This document shows, one piece after another, positions 24,422-31,727 of a stretch of 64,000 bases of DNA. The DNA is from Paludisphaera rhizosphaerae. GTDB taxonomy: Bacteria; Planctomycetota; Planctomycetia; Isosphaerales; Isosphaeraceae. Position 1 is the first letter of the stretch, and the number at the start of each line of letters is the position of its first letter. The position numbers were made by a program, and so were the translations under genes. The DNA is taken from NCBI RefSeq assembly GCF_011065895.1, contig NZ_JAALCR010000013.1, positions 124,001 to 188,000 of the forward strand. Reading direction: 5' to 3'. Under the pieces are notes generated by a model. That model made no database searches. It was given only the letters and a program-made list of their open reading frames with translations, and was not told the DNA's origin.

Positions 24422-25444
24422 TCAACGCTCAGCTCCACGGACAAGCCAGACCAGGACGATCGACGGCCGATCTTCGGACCGGGGCGCGACTTCGGCGGAG
24501 GCGGCGGGAGTTGAAGGAGAAGCCCCCTCCGTCCGTCCGCTGCCGCTTTGAGAAATCGCGGAGTGGTCGACGACCGCGGCGCTCTGAAGAGCCATCCGAT
24601 TCTGCGGGAAGAGCACTTCACCCGCGGGATCGCCCTTGAGGGCGGTCACCTGGCTCATGCTCGCAAGTCTTGTCAGGTTCAGGTGATCGGCCTCAACCTC
24701 GTCGATCCGGCCGGTGAAAGCGCCGGACAACCGCCGCCGAAGGGTGGCCAACTCAGAAGGGTCGAGTTCGGCGGCGAAGACGGCCCCGGGTTGACCGGGA
24801 GCCTCCTCAGATGCAGGGACGTCGAGCCTGAAGAAGTTGCGATGAGACGAGATCTCCAGAAGCGCGGCGGTTTCGTTGGCGTCGATTGCATCGTCCAGGA
24901 CCGAGACGAGGAAAACGCGATGCGTCCCCGGCCGGCTCAGAATTTCCAACGCCGCGACCGCTCGATCCTCGACGACGGATTTCGGGGCGGCCGGAGCGGC
25001 GAGCGTCGCCGGCGGTCCCACTGGCCCGGGATCGACGGCCGTCTCGGCGGTGACGATCGTCGCCACAGGCTGCGAATCCACGGATGAATGCGTCAGTACG
25101 GGAGGCGGATTGACGTGGGTGTGGCGTGAGCGAGACGCCGTCGCCAATCCGAAGGCGATCGCCATCAACCCGGCGGCCGTCGCCGTCACGATCCAGGTCG
25201 TGCGAGTCGGCGCTGCGATCAAACGACGCCGGGGAGCGGCGATCCTCCCCAGAACGGCTCGCGAAACGTCGGGGCCCGCGGGGCGGGGCAGGGCCGCGAC
25301 GATATCGCGGACCACGGCGAGCGACCGAACTTCCTCGGCCAGGGACGCGTCGGCCGACAGGGCGTGCTCGACCGAAGCCCGCGCTTCAGGGGGAAGTTCG
25401 TCGTCGAGATAGGCCGACGCCAGAGATTCGAGTTCGTCGCTCAT
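24422..25444 (-). CDS. Anti-sigma factor (RseA-like), membrane-anchored
   Basis: The ATG at 25444 (M-S-D-E-L-E-S-L-A-S-A-Y-L-D-D-E-L) has AAGG six bases upstream. An overlapping GTG at 25507 would share four bases with the sigma-factor stop. The N-terminal 70 residues are the anti-sigma helical domain, ending in L-P-R-P; a single membrane helix follows (about 107-127), then a Ser/Pro/Thr-rich extracytoplasmic part with a beta-prone region. No zinc-binding H-x3-C-x2-C motif is present. Likely holds the neighbouring ECF sigma factor inactive until a surface signal arrives. Confidence 0.8.
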   Translation of the reverse strand: MSDELESLASAYLDDELPPEARASVEHALSADASLAEEVRSLAVVRDIVAALPRPAGPDVSRAVLGRIAAPRRRLIAAPTRTTWIVTATAAGLMAIAFGLATASRSRHTHVNPPPVLTHSSVDSQPVATIVTAETAVDPGPVGPPATLAAPAAPKSVVEDRAVAALEILSRPGTHRVFLVSVLDDAIDANETAALLEISSHRNFFRLDVPASEEAPGQPGAVFAAELDPSELATLRRRLSGAFTGRIDEVEADHLNLTRLASMSQVTALKGDPAGEVLFPQNRMALQSAAVVDHSAISQSGSGRTEGASPSTPAASAEVAPRSEDRPSIVLVWLVRGAER

Positions 25445-25503
25445 GGTCGCCTTCGGTGTCGCCGGTGTTTTGCGGAAAATCCGCCCACTCTTGGAGTTAC
25501 GAG

Positions 25504-26127
25504 TCACGACAAGGCCCGCTCGACGTCGGGAAAGATTGGTGGGGACGCCTCCTCTTCCACGAGGGGGAGAAGGCGCCTTCGGAGTTGATGGCGAGCCCGG
25601 TGCAGCCGACTCCTGACCGTTCCCACCGGGATCCCCAGCAGCTCCGCGATCTCCTCGTAACGCCGCCCTTCAAAGTCTTTGAGAATTACCACCGCTCGAT
25701 GATCGGGATCCAGGGCTCCAAGCGCCGCCTCGACGACCGCTTCACGCTCGGCGCGTTCCAGGGAGTAGGAAGGGACGCTCGCGGGCGACTCGTCGGCTGG
25801 TTCGAATGGCGTTTGCTCGGAACGGGCGGCCGGGAAGCGAAGCAGCCTGCGCAGCCGTCGCTTCCGCAGCCGGCTCATCGCCAGGTTCAAGGCGATGCGG
25901 TAGATCCAGGTATAGAAAGAACTCCCCCCCTGATACTGGTCGAGCTTTTCATAACCGCGAACGAAAGCGTCCTGAAGCACGTCCTGGGCGTCCTCGGGCG
26001 AGCCGAGCAGCCGGACCACCATGGGGTAGAGCCGGTCCTGACAGCGTTCGACCAGCTCGCCATAGGCCTCAGGGCGGCCGGCGCGACAGGCTTGCACCAG
26101 ACTCATGTCGTCCAGATCTTGAGCCAT
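25504..26127 (-). CDS. ECF RNA polymerase sigma factor
   Basis: The start at 26127 (M-A-Q-D-L-D-D-M-S-L) has AAGGA five bases upstream; two further in-frame starts lie at 26133 and 26166. The protein has the sigma-70 region 2 segment D-A-Q-D-V-L-Q-D-A-F-V-R-G-Y (about 48-61) and W-I-Y-R-I-A-L-N (about 75-82), a linker, then region 4 with the helix-turn-helix Y-E-E-I-A-E-L-L-G-I-P-V-G-T-V-R-S-R-L-H-R-A-R near the C-terminus. Its stop overlaps the longest anti-sigma frame. Regulon unknown; no matching promoter was identified upstream. Confidence 0.93.
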   Translation of the reverse strand: MAQDLDDMSLVQACRAGRPEAYGELVERCQDRLYPMVVRLLGSPEDAQDVLQDAFVRGYEKLDQYQGGSSFYTWIYRIALNLAMSRLRKRRLRRLLRFPAARSEQTPFEPADESPASVPSYSLERAEREAVVEAALGALDPDHRAVVILKDFEGRRYEEIAELLGIPVGTVRSRLHRARHQLRRRLLPLVEEEASPPIFPDVERALS

Positions 26128-26702
26128 TTGCATCCTTAGACGCTGCGCCCGCGGTTTTGGTTCCAATCTCGCTCCGGCCGATCAGTTCCCCCTCGTCCTC
26201 CAATTATCCGCTCCGTCGCCCGCTTCGGGAATCCCAGGGCGCTCGACGCGCGTCCTCAATCGGGTCGGAGGGACGGGGAGGGGGACCGAAACGATCCATA
26301 TCCACCCCTTTCGTCGTCTGAGGCGCGCCCTCGCCGAAGTCGGCGGAGCGGGGCGAGGTTGTTTACAACCGCACATCAACCGACATGTAGCATTCATTAT
26401 GATTTAAGGGTTTCGGAGACTGCGAGAAGTCGTTCATGTAAGCACGGATCGACAAAACGCAGTGCTTTCTTGTTAATCACTCCGGCTTTGCTAGACTGTC
26501 CCCGCCAACCTGTCATCAAATGCAACTTCAATTGTGTCTACATGCATGAAGCGGGTCCCGAGTCGACCGCGACGGTCTTTGTGCGCGCTCACTGAGCGGC
26601 AGTGACCCTCGACGGCAGAGGGGCTTCACGCGCTTCGAGATCCCCCTCGAAGCTCTCTACGACGAACCGCACCCTGCTCCAGCTCCAAGTGGAGGATATG
26701 GA
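26128..26702. other. Divergent promoter region, AT-rich toward the 3' side
   Basis: This stretch lies between the sigma gene (minus) and the large modular protein gene (plus). From about 26360 to 26560 the sequence is clearly richer in A and T than its surroundings, which marks a regulatory zone. No gene was supported; the short plus-strand frame at 26359-26595 has no ribosome site and no known homology. The only site called is the -35/-10 pair listed separately. Confidence 0.6.
26470..26497 (+). promoter_or_regulatory. Candidate promoter for the modular protein gene
   Basis: TTGTTA at 26470-26475 and TAGACT at 26492-26497 are separated by 16 bases in the AT-rich zone. The -35 box matches five of six positions of a TTGACA-like consensus in the T-T-G half and the terminal A, the -10 box is weaker. 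The leader to the ATG would be about 200 bases, with GGAGG just before the start codon. The GCTAGACT hexamer neighbourhood recurs at 35485 and, as ACTAGACT, at 62001. Confidence 0.35.
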
Positions 26703-29700
26703 ATGAGACGACTGCGAAAGCTCGGCCGCCGGCCGAGCTTCGAGGCGCTGCAGCGCCGTGAACTGTTGAGCGGCGCTGGAGTTAACTTATATACATATTA
26801 TGAAGGGACTAACGACCCGCTCTTCACGGACGTCCGACGGCTGATGACGTCCTGGACGTCGCCCTCGAACAGCCCCCTCTCGCTGACGTCGACCGGATAT
26901 CCCCTCGCCACCGCGACCTCGAATGCGAATCTGGCCTACTACCCGGACGGCGTCTACCAGGTCAGTTACAAGGGGACGGCGGTCGTCGACTTCTCGGGCA
27001 TCGGCGTCCTGGCCGCTCCGATGACGAAGGGCGCCGACGGAGTGACCCGCGGACTCCTGAACGTCGCGTTTGCGAACGCTCCGGGCGCCGAGCGAAAGCT
27101 CACGATGACCGTCGAGACGACCAGCACGACGGATCCGATGAGCGATCTGCATATCTGGATGCCCGGCGTGGCGACCGACGGCAGCAAGCTCTATACCGAC
27201 CAATTTCTGCAAAGTCTGAAGCCGTTCGACTACGTACGCTTCATGGACTGGAACTGGACGAATAATTCGACGGTGACGTCCTGGTCTCAGCGGTCGGTCG
27301 TCGACTCGTTCGGAGCCGGCAACATCTCCTTCGAGGCGATGATCGAGCTGTGCAACGAGTCGGGCGACAGCATGTGGGTCACGATCCCTGCGCTGGCGAA
27401 CGACGACTACGTCAGGAACCTTGCCGCCCTGATCCACCAGAAACTCGACCCAAACCTTAAAGTTTACATCGAGTACAGCAACGAGACCTGGAACGGGTCG
27501 TTCACTCAGTACAACCAGACCCTGGCGATGGCCAACTCCGACTACAGGGTCTCCGCAACGAACGACATGGACAAGGTCGCTCAGGAATCCGCCCTGCAGC
27601 TGAAACGCATTTCGGACATTTTTCATACGGAGTATGGGAGCTCGTTCACGAGCGTCATCCCGGTCTTCTCCGGATGGACGATTTACCCCGGCTATCTGAG
27701 CCAGGGACTCGACACGGTCGCCCGTTGGTACGGCAATCCGACTCAGTACATCAAGTCGACCGCCATCGCTCCCTACGCGACGGCCCTGGGAGGTTCAACC
27801 TCCGCGGACGTCCCGAAGCTGATCTCGGACCTCGATACGGCGATCGCCAATAACGCTTCCAGCATTGCGGCCACCGCCGCCGTCGCCGCTTCTTATGGTC
27901 TGCCGCTCGACATGTACGAAGGGGGCGTCCACGTTCTGTACGCGACGGCCCCGGCGTTGGAAGCCGTCCTGACCGATCCCCTGATGTACGACGTGATGCG
28001 CCGCTACATGGACAGTTGGGCGGCCAACGGCGGCCGAAGTGCGACGTTCTATACGCTGGACGATCCGACCTGGGGGCTGAAGCCTAACACGACCTGGGCC
28101 GACAGCCAGCGTTACGACGGAGTGCTGGCCTCAATTCTCCCAGCCGGCGACGCCAACCTCGACGGCGTGGTGAATTTCGCCGACTTCCAGATCGTATCGG
28201 CGAACATGGGCCGGGATCAGCTCTGGTGGACGCAGGGCGATTTCAACCATGACGGGAAGGTCGACGCGACCGATCTGGCCGCCCTTCTCGCGAATTTCGA
28301 CATGAGCTCGCTGACGGCCGACCAGGCCGCGCAGATGGCCGTCGCACTCAAGCCGTCCTCGGTTTCCACGACGACGCCGGTCGCATTCCAGGTCTTCGCC
28401 GAGAAGTACGTTGCGTCGCTGATGAGTTCGTCGGCTTCGGGCTCCTCCAATTACGTCGCCAACGGCGTCTACAACGGCGGATTCGGAACGGGGCTCCTGC
28501 AACTCGCGGGCGTCTCGTACCCGAACGGCATCGGCGTTTCCAGTAGCTCGACCATCGTCCTGCCGCTGGGTGGAACGTACACGAGCTTCTCGGCCGTGAT
28601 CGGCGTGGATGATCGTGCGGGCTCGGGGACCGGTCAGGCGACTTTCAAGCTGATCGGCGACGGCAAGGTGCTTTACACCTCGCCGGTGATGAAGGCTGGG
28701 ACCGCGCTGCCGATCAACGTCGACGTCAAGGGGGTCTCCAGCCTGTCGCTGGTGGTGACGTCCCCCGACGGGTCGAACGTCTCGATTCCGGCCGACTGGG
28801 CGCAGGCGCGGTTGGTCGACGCGCGCTCGACGAGCGTCAGCGCTCCGACCTTGACCTGGACGGTCACCAAGAACGGATCGAGCTTCGCTTCGTCTTCCGG
28901 GCAGTCGTTCGTCCTCTCGCCCTCCGGCGCGGGCACCTACGTCGTGTCCGTCAAGGCCGTCGACTCGACTGGCGCCAGTTCGACTCGGAGCGTGACGATC
29001 ACCGTCGGCACGCCAACCCAGCAGGCGACCGCGTCGTACAGCGGATCGGACGTGAGAAGCGGCGTCTGGAAGAACCGCATCGGCATGGAGGCGTCGGCCG
29101 TCGCCGGCGACTCGGGAGCCTACGCCTCCAGCTCGACGTACATCTCGGTTTCTGGGGCGACCACCCAGGTTTACGACCGCGCCTCGTCCGATCCGCGCGC
29201 CCTCGACAAGCTTCAGAGCGCGCTGACGACCATCTCCCCCTGGAGCGGGTACTCCATCGCGTCCGCCTGGCTCGGCTCCTCGTTCACGATCGACGTCAAC
29301 CTGGCCGACGGCAAGGCTCACGAGGTCACGCTCTACGCCCTCGACTGGGATTCGTCGGCTCGGGCCGAGAGGATCGACGTGGTCGACGCGGCGACGGGCC
29401 AGGTGCTCGACTCTCGGTCGATCTCGTCGTTCAACTCCGGTGTTTATCTCACCTGGACTGTCTCCGGTCACGTTCAGTTCCGAGTCGTCCAGACCGGCGG
29501 AGCCAGCGCGGCGATCAGCGGCGTGTTCGTCGACCCGCTCTCCAGCGGTTCCGCGACAACCGGCTACTACACCGGAACGGACACGAAGACGCAGGGAAGT
29601 TGGCAGGCCGTCTACGGCGGGCAGGGCTACATCATGGCCAACGCCCCCAGCTCAGTGCCGTCGTACGCCACGGTCAAGCTGTCGGGGCAGGGAACCTACC

Positions 29701-31727
29701 TCTACAGTTCCTCGACCAGCGACGTCCGCGCGCTCCAGACCCCGGACGGTTCGACCCGCCAGTCCTCGGTCTGGTGGAGCCTGGGGACGTTCACGGTCGA
29801 CGTGAATCTGACCGACGGCAAGGCTCACGAGATCACGCTCTACCTGGCCGACTACGATCGAAAATCGCGCTCCGAGGTTGTCACGATCATCGACGCCGAC
29901 ACCGGCCTCGTGCTCGACAGGCGGTTTATGTCGTCGTTCGGAGACGGGATCTACCTCTCCGCGAAGGTCAGCGGCCACGTGATTTTCAGCGTGGGCCTGG
30001 CTGGAGGCGATAACGCCGTCCTCAGCGGCGTCTTCTTCGATTCGGCCGGCGACTCTTCCAGCGGCGGCGACACCGGCGGCGGCGACACCGGCTCCGGCAG
30101 CGGCGTATCGACGAGCGGCGTCTACGACGCGACCGACGCCACGACCCAGGGCGCATGGAAAGGCGCGTACGGCGCCCAGGGCTACGTCGCGGCCGGCTCC
30201 TCCAGCTCGCTCCCGGCTTACGCAACCGTCCGGGTGACCGGGGCGCAGACCTACAATTACAGCACCTCCACCAACGACGTTCGCGCCCTCCAGACCTCCG
30301 ACGGGTCAACCCGTCAGTCCTCGGTCTGGTACGGAAATACGTTCACCGTGGATGTGAATCTGACCGACGGCCTATCCCACAAGGTCTCGCTCTACCTGGC
30401 GGACTATAGCCGGGAGTCGCGCACTGAACTGATTACTCTCATTAACGCCGACACCGGCGTCGTGCTCGACACGCGGACGATCGGATCGTTCGGCGACGGC
30501 AAGTACCTCACCTGGACCATCAGCGGCCACGTGGCGTTCAAGTTCGCCATGGTCGGCGGCCCCAACGCGGTACTCAGCGGCGTCTTCATCGATTCGGCCG
30601 ACGCCTCGACCGGCGGCGGTAGCGGCGGCGGCACCGGCTCCGGCGGCGGTGATACGGGCTCCGGCGGCAACACTTCCACGACGGGCGTCTATGTCGCCAC
30701 CGACTCGACAACCCAGGGCGCCTGGAAAGGCGCTTACGGCAACCAGGGCTATGTCGAGGCTGGTTCGTCCAGTTCGCTCCCCTCCTATGCAACCGTCACG
30801 GTTACGGGGGCGCAGAGCTATACCTACAGCACCTCCACCAACGACGTTCGCGCCCTCCAGACCTCCGACGGGTCAACCCGTCAGTCCTCGGTCTGGTGGA
30901 CTCTGCGATCGTTCACGGTCGACGTGAATCTGACCGACGGCCTGACCCACAAGGTCTCGCTCTACCTGGCGGACTACAGCCGCGAGTCGCGTTCGGAGCT
31001 CATTTCGCTCATCGACGCCGACACCGGCGCCGTGCTGGACTCGCGGTTGTTCAGCTCGTTCGGCGACGGTATGTACGCCACCTGGGAGGTGAGCGGCCAC
31101 GTCACGTTCAAGGTGGATGTGGTCGGCGGCCCCAACGCGGTGCTCAGCGGCGTCTTCATCGATTCGGCCGACGCCTCGACCGGCGGCGGCGGGAGCACCA
31201 ACAACGGCGGCGGCACCGGTACCGGCGGCAGCACGTCCACGACCGGCGCTTACGTCGCGACTGACTCGAAAACCCAGGGGAGCTGGAAGGGCGTCTATGG
31301 CTCCAAGGGCTATATCGAAGCCGGTTCGTCCAGCTCGCTGCCGTCGTACGCGAACCTCTCGATGACGGGGGCTCAGACCTACACCTACAGCTCCTCCACC
31401 AATGACGTTCGCGCCCTGCAGACCCCCGACGGATCAACCCGTCAGTCCTCGGTCTGGTGGTCGGGTCGAACCTTCTCGATGGACCTGAACCTGACCGACG
31501 GCCAGACGCACCAGGTTTCGCTCTACCTGGCGGACTACGATCAGAAGTCGCGAGTCGAGCAGATCACGCTGATCAATGCCGACACGGGCGCCGTGCTGGA
31601 CACTCGAACGATCAGTTCGTTCGGCAACGGCGTTTACGTCACCTGGTCGGTCAGCGGCCATGTGACGTTCAAGGTGGATATGATCGGCGGCGACAACGCC
31701 GTCGTCAGCGGTCTGTTCATCGACTAA
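26703..31727 (+). CDS. Giant secreted modular protein, LEPR-XLL, glycosidase-like head, dockerin-like pair, five tandem modules
   Basis: The 1674-residue product starts (ATG after GGAGG) with the motif F-E-A-L-Q-R-R-E-L-L-S at residues 13-23, a variant of the planctomycete LEPR-XLL sorting motif. Residues 25-475 look like a TIM-barrel hydrolase of clan GH-A type, with Y-I-E-Y-S-N-E-T-W-N-G (Asn260-Glu261) and D-M-Y-E-G-G (Glu406) as candidate acid/base and nucleophile. Two dockerin-like calcium loops follow (G-D-A-N-L-D-G and G-D-F-N-H-D-G-K-V-D, about 481-533), then an NPCBM-like region to about 700 and a PKD-like stretch (715-770). Five related modules, separated by Gly/Ser/Thr linkers, fill the C-terminal half. 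A hairpin follows the stop. Confidence 0.85.
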   Translation: MRRLRKLGRRPSFEALQRRELLSGAGVNLYTYYEGTNDPLFTDVRRLMTSWTSPSNSPLSLTSTGYPLATATSNANLAYYPDGVYQVSYKGTAVVDFSGIGVLAAPMTKGADGVTRGLLNVAFANAPGAERKLTMTVETTSTTDPMSDLHIWMPGVATDGSKLYTDQFLQSLKPFDYVRFMDWNWTNNSTVTSWSQRSVVDSFGAGNISFEAMIELCNESGDSMWVTIPALANDDYVRNLAALIHQKLDPNLKVYIEYSNETWNGSFTQYNQTLAMANSDYRVSATNDMDKVAQESALQLKRISDIFHTEYGSSFTSVIPVFSGWTIYPGYLSQGLDTVARWYGNPTQYIKSTAIAPYATALGGSTSADVPKLISDLDTAIANNASSIAATAAVAASYGLPLDMYEGGVHVLYATAPALEAVLTDPLMYDVMRRYMDSWAANGGRSATFYTLDDPTWGLKPNTTWADSQRYDGVLASILPAGDANLDGVVNFADFQIVSANMGRDQLWWTQGDFNHDGKVDATDLAALLANFDMSSLTADQAAQMAVALKPSSVSTTTPVAFQVFAEKYVASLMSSSASGSSNYVANGVYNGGFGTGLLQLAGVSYPNGIGVSSSSTIVLPLGGTYTSFSAVIGVDDRAGSGTGQATFKLIGDGKVLYTSPVMKAGTALPINVDVKGVSSLSLVVTSPDGSNVSIPADWAQARLVDARSTSVSAPTLTWTVTKNGSSFASSSGQSFVLSPSGAGTYVVSVKAVDSTGASSTRSVTITVGTPTQQATASYSGSDVRSGVWKNRIGMEASAVAGDSGAYASSSTYISVSGATTQVYDRASSDPRALDKLQSALTTISPWSGYSIASAWLGSSFTIDVNLADGKAHEVTLYALDWDSSARAERIDVVDAATGQVLDSRSISSFNSGVYLTWTVSGHVQFRVVQTGGASAAISGVFVDPLSSGSATTGYYTGTDTKTQGSWQAVYGGQGYIMANAPSSVPSYATVKLSGQGTYLYSSSTSDVRALQTPDGSTRQSSVWWSLGTFTVDVNLTDGKAHEITLYLADYDRKSRSEVVTIIDADTGLVLDRRFMSSFGDGIYLSAKVSGHVIFSVGLAGGDNAVLSGVFFDSAGDSSSGGDTGGGDTGSGSGVSTSGVYDATDATTQGAWKGAYGAQGYVAAGSSSSLPAYATVRVTGAQTYNYSTSTNDVRALQTSDGSTRQSSVWYGNTFTVDVNLTDGLSHKVSLYLADYSRESRTELITLINADTGVVLDTRTIGSFGDGKYLTWTISGHVAFKFAMVGGPNAVLSGVFIDSADASTGGGSGGGTGSGGGDTGSGGNTSTTGVYVATDSTTQGAWKGAYGNQGYVEAGSSSSLPSYATVTVTGAQSYTYSTSTNDVRALQTSDGSTRQSSVWWTLRSFTVDVNLTDGLTHKVSLYLADYSRESRSELISLIDADTGAVLDSRLFSSFGDGMYATWEVSGHVTFKVDVVGGPNAVLSGVFIDSADASTGGGGSTNNGGGTGTGGSTSTTGAYVATDSKTQGSWKGVYGSKGYIEAGSSSSLPSYANLSMTGAQTYTYSSSTNDVRALQTPDGSTRQSSVWWSGRTFSMDLNLTDGQTHQVSLYLADYDQKSRVEQITLINADTGAVLDTRTISSFGNGVYVTWSVSGHVTFKVDMIGGDNAVVSGLFID
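29035..31727 (+). repeat. Five in-frame tandem modules within the giant protein gene
   Basis: Module starts are near 29035, 29562, 30117, 30683 and 31246 (residues about 778, 954, 1139, 1327, 1515). Modules two to five share the pattern D-V-R-A-L-Q-T-x-D-G-S-T-R-Q-S-S-V-W, V-D-V-N-L-T-D-G, L-Y-L-A-D-Y, D-A-D-T-G-x-V-L-D and V-S-G-H-V-x-F. Bases 30258-30330 and 30825-30897 are identical over 73 positions, a spacing of 567. Module five is more diverged and module one most. Linkers are built from GGC-rich triplets encoding Gly, Ser and Thr. Confidence 0.9.

Follow-up and report, generated by a model that had tools for sequence, protein, structure and literature searches.

Five tandem copies of a module of about 160 residues make up the C-terminal part of a 1674-residue protein of Paludisphaera rhizosphaerae. 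Its sequence family is missing from the Pfam, NCBIfam and PDB sequence libraries searched, but its fold, as predicted, is a known one. The gene lies in a stretch of 64,000 nucleotides of contig NZ_JAALCR010000013.1 (the window, to which unprefixed positions refer). The array clearly shows tandem amplification that has run in parallel at a single locus. On balance, the module probably represents an unnamed family resembling carbohydrate-binding modules (CBMs), of which five copies would act as a C-terminal multivalent attachment array. Although missing from the libraries searched, the domain is abundant in some genomes; it comes together with a clan GH-A-like head of unassigned family, parallel amplification and fusions in prophage-like regions, a hint of a role in binding.

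Architecture of the 1674-residue protein

The features of the gene are as follows.

26703..31727 (+), whole gene, 1674 aa, one terminal stop; syntenic orthologue in 5/5 congeners examined
26703..26774 (+), N-terminal 24 aa, Arg-rich, containing LQRRELLSG (from the sequence)
26775..28130 (+), catalytic head of ~452 aa, predicted clan GH-A glycoside hydrolase (structural model; conserved N236-E237 and E382)
28143..28286 (+), type I dockerin pair, aa 481-528 (PF00404, E 1.3e-6, 28.9 bits against a cut-off of 22.9)
28416..28814 (+), NPCBM/NEW2 domain, aa 572-704 (PF08305, E 3.2e-28)
28839..29006 (+), weak PKD/Ig-like spacer, aa 713-768 (PF22352, E 0.0088, under the cut-off)
29034..29537 (+), module 1, aa 778-945 (groups with module 1 of four congeners)
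29565..30044 (+), module 2, aa 955-1114 (repeat alignment, tree)
30120..30599 (+), module 3, aa 1140-1299 (structure predicted for 30120-30596)
30687..31166 (+), module 4, aa 1329-1488 (repeat alignment, tree)
31248..31724 (+), module 5, aa 1516-1674 (ends at the stop codon)

The final 897 residues thus consist of five in-frame modules of 159-168 aa each. The original prediction had placed them at 29035-31727, which was right: they cover 29034-31724, followed by the stop. It had also named a dockerin-like pair, now supported by the PF00404 match; that account did not mention NPCBM, which lies between the dockerin and the modules. The protein had further been called secreted, a description that inspection by eye did not support, revealing no hydrophobic signal peptide and only the Arg-rich start. 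This start resembles the planctomycete LEPR-XLL start; the first 50 residues gave no NCBIfam match.

Divergent to the gene, at 24422-26166 (-), lie an ECF sigma factor gene and, next to it, an ORF of 361 aa that had no Pfam match and perhaps encodes its anti-sigma factor. The ECF sigma gene adjoins the orthologue in 5/5 congeners and the 361-aa ORF was found in four.

Similarity and constraint among the modules

Each module found the other four by phmmer at 102-268 bits (E 5.2e-33 or better), whereas the best of 1000 shuffled modules reached 13.3 bits, which confirmed the five tandem in-frame copies proposed originally. Pairwise identity among the five is 42-82% at the amino acid and 59-85% at the nucleotide level; modules 2-5 are 63-82% identical in amino acids among themselves. 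The repeat motifs that had been proposed, including D-V-R-A-L-Q, fit modules 2-5 best, while module 1 reads D-P-R-A-L-D and carries an insertion of ~8 residues. Similarly, the Gly/Ser/Thr linkers that had been described are present as three linkers of 25-29 aa, but modules 1 and 2 are joined by just 9 aa. Modules 2-5 show dN/dS ratios of 0.26-0.41 among themselves; when module 1 is compared with them, the ratios are 0.61-0.72. The modules are therefore coding and constrained: the ratios show purifying selection on modules 2-5, and less clearly so for the old module 1 at its distance from the rest.

The module has a known predicted fold and no family assignment

An AlphaFold2 model of module 3, built on a 53-row alignment, had a pLDDT of 97.2 and a pTM of 0.92 and showed an all-beta jelly roll with 13 strands and no helix. 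In a Foldseek search of the PDB the top match was CBM6cm-2, a CBM6 domain (E 1.6e-4, TM 0.44/0.51); further down were CBM6, CBM35, CBM36, CBM32 and malectin, together with a peptidoglycan O-acetylesterase and bacterial toxin domains. TM-scores to the listed solved CBMs were only ~0.3-0.54. The best VIA match was the C-terminal domain of Bacteroides uniformis beta-glucuronidase 2 (6d8g, residues 719-884; Z 10.7 over 120 residues, 2.8 Å), yet at 12% identity, followed by a pectate-lyase carbohydrate-binding domain (Z 9.8), malectin (9.1) and CBM35 (8.9). The jelly roll originally predicted is thus borne out by the model and its Foldseek and VIA neighbours. Similar scores were obtained for the binding components of clostridial binary toxins (Z 8.2-9.3) and for APC10 (Z 8.1-8.3), neither of which is known to bind sugars. 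The predicted fold is a known one and by itself is no proof of sugar binding. In predicted jelly roll, size and attachment to a glycosidase the module resembles domains of the CBM6/CBM35/malectin-like galactose-binding fold; it differs from them in having no significant sequence match, and identity in the listed structural alignments is 6-16%.

Eight residues are invariant in 53 diverse copies (G11, W13, G18, Y92, D95, L116, G127 and G136), and eleven more are conserved in at least 90% of them (Y17, G21, R55, L57, W70, F75, R101, F124, A150, G154 and F156), R101 dropping to 0.82 under sequence weights. Several of the conserved residues sit in loops 7-20, 94-101 and 122-127; judged from strand order, these loops would lie at one edge of the sandwich.

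By sequence, no credible Pfam match was found in any of the five window modules scanned singly, and no credible NCBIfam match in modules 1, 3 and 5 scanned in the same way. In the set of 53 diverse copies, to which the window modules belong, any one Pfam or NCBIfam family occurred in two copies at most, and none scored better than E 0.002. Among PDB sequences the best E-values, 0.59 for the profile and 0.65 for module 3 alone, are noise. The original prediction had recognised no assigned family and had named a confident assignment to some known CBM or adhesin domain as grounds for withdrawing the idea; Pfam, NCBIfam and the PDB sequences gave no such assignment. CAZy CBM families come within the scope of these libraries where they have a Pfam model or a solved structure. 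A PepSY assignment in the modules (E 0.00099 in the whole-protein scan) was rejected at 19.8 bits against a cut-off of 24, as were DUF2710, Peptidase_C39_2 and Peptidase_M7, which fell under the cut-off or occurred in at most 2 of the 53 members. NPCBM/NEW2 is a jelly roll as well and is present in the same protein, but its profile does not align with that of the modules (hhalign probability 0.15%), leaving the modules unsupported as diverged NPCBM copies.

No description of the module was found in titles and the opening parts of abstracts. Bacteria of this kind are reported to have many unclassified putative glycosidases (PMC5352709); in the main text of that article the terms 'carbohydrate-binding', 'CBM' and 'dockerin' occur 0 times. 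A family model for the module would help to annotate large uncharacterised proteins.

The head resembles clan GH-A glycosidases

The head likewise matched no Pfam or NCBIfam family. Modelling (pLDDT 89.0) gave a (beta/alpha)8 barrel to which accessory strands are added. GH51 arabinofuranosidases were the best VIA neighbours (Z up to 23.4), followed by GH79-type and GH39 enzymes; GH10 and GH51 enzymes also ranked high in Foldseek. Enzymes of clan GH-A carry Asn-Glu after strand 4, with the Glu as acid/base, and a nucleophilic Glu after strand 7. In a 20-row head alignment (fragments included; residue 1 is aa 25 of the protein), N236 and E237 do not vary and lie just after strand 230-234, and E382, conserved at 90% or more, lies just after strand 378-380. 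The head thus shares with the GH51, GH39 and GH79 families of the clan both this pattern and the structure (Z ~19-23 over 268-310 residues), but identity to them is just 10-14% and the head has no Pfam family of its own. The predicted barrel and the residue pattern bear out the glycosidase-like head of the original prediction, which we take to be a clan GH-A-like predicted glycosidase of unassigned family.

Parallel growth of the array at a syntenic locus

In all five congeners with the syntenic orthologue the ECF-sigma gene is adjacent, and a HEAT-repeat gene adjoins in the four whose stretch reaches it, the fifth ending at a contig edge. The window protein has five modules; the congeners have 5, 4, 4, at least 4 (contig edge) and 2. 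Where the head has homologues farther away, the numbers are 12, 6, 3, 2, 2, 2 and 0 modules (one second copy being partial, at a contig edge), and seven further rows carry none, three of these running off the contig end.

In a tree of 65 modules, window module 1 forms one group with module 1 of four congeners (support 100/93), and window modules 2-5 form a clade of their own (100/99). The last two or three modules of these congeners group within their own protein: modules 3-5 of G274 (100/93; 98-99% identical), and the distal modules of G275 (100/99; 92%), G276 (100/100; 95%) and G277 (99/92; 59%). Module 2 of G275 and module 2 of G276 group together (90/96, below the star), and therefore not every downstream module is lineage-specific. 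The exception is the fifth congener, G273, whose two modules group with each other (97/82). This pattern indicates that the proximal module is the shared one and that the modules at the distal end arose independently.

Distribution and carrier proteins

The P. rhizosphaerae genome holds 23 module copies in nine ORFs. Within its family, Isosphaeraceae, 15 of 45 genomes match, two of them with 26 and 50 matches, and none was found in the other 30. An even draw from the phylum gave matches in 15 of 246 genomes, the own genome included (5-row profile). The draw from Acidobacteria gave 1 of 199 (the seed genome only). In Verrucomicrobia 6 of 194 genomes matched, again counting the seed, and in four of these all matches were partial; all these counts are lower bounds, at most 15 or 19 first-look candidates having been scored per genome. 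A scan of genome contigs yielded 16 loci, belonging by record title to Planctomycetes, Acidobacteria and Verrucomicrobia, and the actinomycete Embleya has two copies. The module's spread is patchy and, among the groups drawn, densest in its own family. A planctomycete-specific module, as first suggested, is contradicted by the copies in the other three groups. One copy lies in a 13.3-kb gene annotated as a fibronectin type III protein on plasmid pPL62-2 (NZ_CP011275.1; L153:12951-26255).

The carriers comprise 39 ORFs, 14 of which were scanned against Pfam besides the window protein. Their domains include a right-handed beta-helix, S8 subtilase, cadherin/Big with a DUF5122 propeller, PKD repeats, Ig, fn3, laminin G, Calx-beta, pro-kumamolisin, DMFA2_C, and fn3 with EndoU; one phage carrier ORF gave a weak tail-completion match, and the ORFs of L025 and L072 had no Pfam match. 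By domain content the other carriers of the module look extracellular. Since they include proteases and propellers, targeting one glycosidase to its substrate is unlikely as a general role. A single module is present in 20 of the 39. Among the 37 ORFs with a complete 3' end (the 39 minus two that run off the stretch; several are paralogues, so the ORFs are not independent), 21 have no more than 15 aa between their last module and the stop, and 16 have more.

Several carriers show further arrangements. A subtilase (L067:4663-8310, -) has four C-terminal modules that are 86-97% mutually identical, judging from which this array is another recent amplification. Two large ORFs (L068:8697-15761, +, and L069:8335-15822, +) have a module pair in their N-terminal parts and ~1080 aa in common at 61% identity, but differ at their ends, between which no match was found. 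L068 ends in a predicted EndoU nuclease, which is reminiscent of polymorphic toxins. In the second of these ORFs, a stretch similar to the window NPCBM (L069:8770-9096, +) precedes the module pair; NPCBM plus module thus recurs in the genome.

Possible functions of the array

Under the attachment reading, the modules would be non-catalytic beta-sandwich domains of galactose-binding-like (CBM6/CBM35/malectin-like) fold, set as a C-terminal multivalent array behind a clan GH-A glycosidase. The ligand of each, we infer, would most likely be a glycan from the extracellular matrix, the cell envelope or the substrate. Copy number would set avidity and reach, and would change on the C-terminal side by in-place tandem duplication with the first module kept. 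The fold neighbours, the invariant loop residues, the company of glycosidase head, NPCBM and dockerin, the extracellular-looking carriers, the last module near the stop in 21 of 37 ORFs, and the amplification seen in tree, copy number and synteny all argue for attachment. The low TM-scores, the same-fold domains that score alike, the NPCBM profile mismatch, the diversity of carriers and the 16 of 37 ORFs with modules away from the C-terminus argue against it.

Alternatively, the array could be a stalk that does no more than hold the glycosidase away from the cell surface, its copy number tuning length only. Periscope Proteins are the model for such a stalk, and their array length varies between strains of one species. 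The window array is, like theirs, a tandem array of varying copy number (as outlined in PMC8201768); the variation observed is between congeneric species, and no anchor follows the array. Near-identical tandem copies in some congeners (92-99% among distal modules in three), flexible Gly/Ser/Thr linkers and copy-number differences at one syntenic locus agree with a stalk. Long flexible linkers, however, make no rigid rod, and just one module is present in 20 of the 39 carriers. In addition, W13, D95 and G127 lie in loops and do not vary among 53 copies drawn from several phyla, which suggests a site and not only a scaffold; we regard the stalk as unlikely. That the module is a tag retaining diverse exported proteins in the envelope or matrix would account for its C-terminal place in 21 of 37 complete ORFs behind very diverse heads, but it is N-terminal or internal in the remaining 16, and 30 of the family's 45 genomes gave no match, so it is no general sorting device, and we consider such a tag quite unlikely. 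It is more doubtful still that the profiles missed a very divergent member of a described family such as CBM6, CBM35, malectin or NPCBM: the fold similarity and the NPCBM in the same protein would fit, but the 53 members share no library family in more than two cases or beyond E 0.002, the hhalign probability with NPCBM is 0.15%, and the listed structural alignments stay at 6-16% identity.

Module fusions in prophage-like regions

Two ORFs of the own genome, L071:4810-6105 (-) on G000:C6 and L072:5366-6787 (+) on G000:C15, lie in prophage-like regions and consist of one N-terminal module followed by Gly-Gly-rich repeats and a further domain. They have the module and repeats in common (38% over residues 12-306), and no match between their last domains was reported. 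The last domain of L071 matches a PHROG tail terminator (E 9e-6) and, under the cut-off, PF11367 (1.2e-4); its neighbours match terminase, portal, head protease, major head protein, major tail protein, tail chaperone and, weakly, tape measure. The last domain of L072 had no PHROG or Pfam match, and two of the ten ORFs scanned in its region matched a head scaffold (weakly) and a major head protein.

Two relatives of the L071 last domain were examined: a 168-aa ORF without the module and a 406-aa ORF whose N-terminus resembles the module very weakly (10.8 bits); the eight examined for L072 (153-184 aa) were all without a module match. Because nine of these ten relatives, namely those with loci among a larger number of matches, are without it, we suggest that the module was added to virion-region proteins. 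Seen alongside phage adhesins, as outlined in PMC13370021 and PMC9853417, the fusions fit a role in binding. A more far-reaching proposal, which we put forward as speculative and rather unlikely, is that the module serves as an adhesive tag for one matrix glycan on many host surface proteins and that temperate phages of the same host took it onto their virion proteins. If this were true, host enzymes and phage particles would attach to the same matrix.

Scans of IMG/VR, which start from exact short patterns and can miss distant relatives, yielded no relative for the L071 phage module, which also had none in phage records, nor for module A1 and the acidobacterial module; the planctomycete module L028 had none in phage records. 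The module stretch of L072 is identical (100%) to one IMG/VR record, probably this strain's own prophage.
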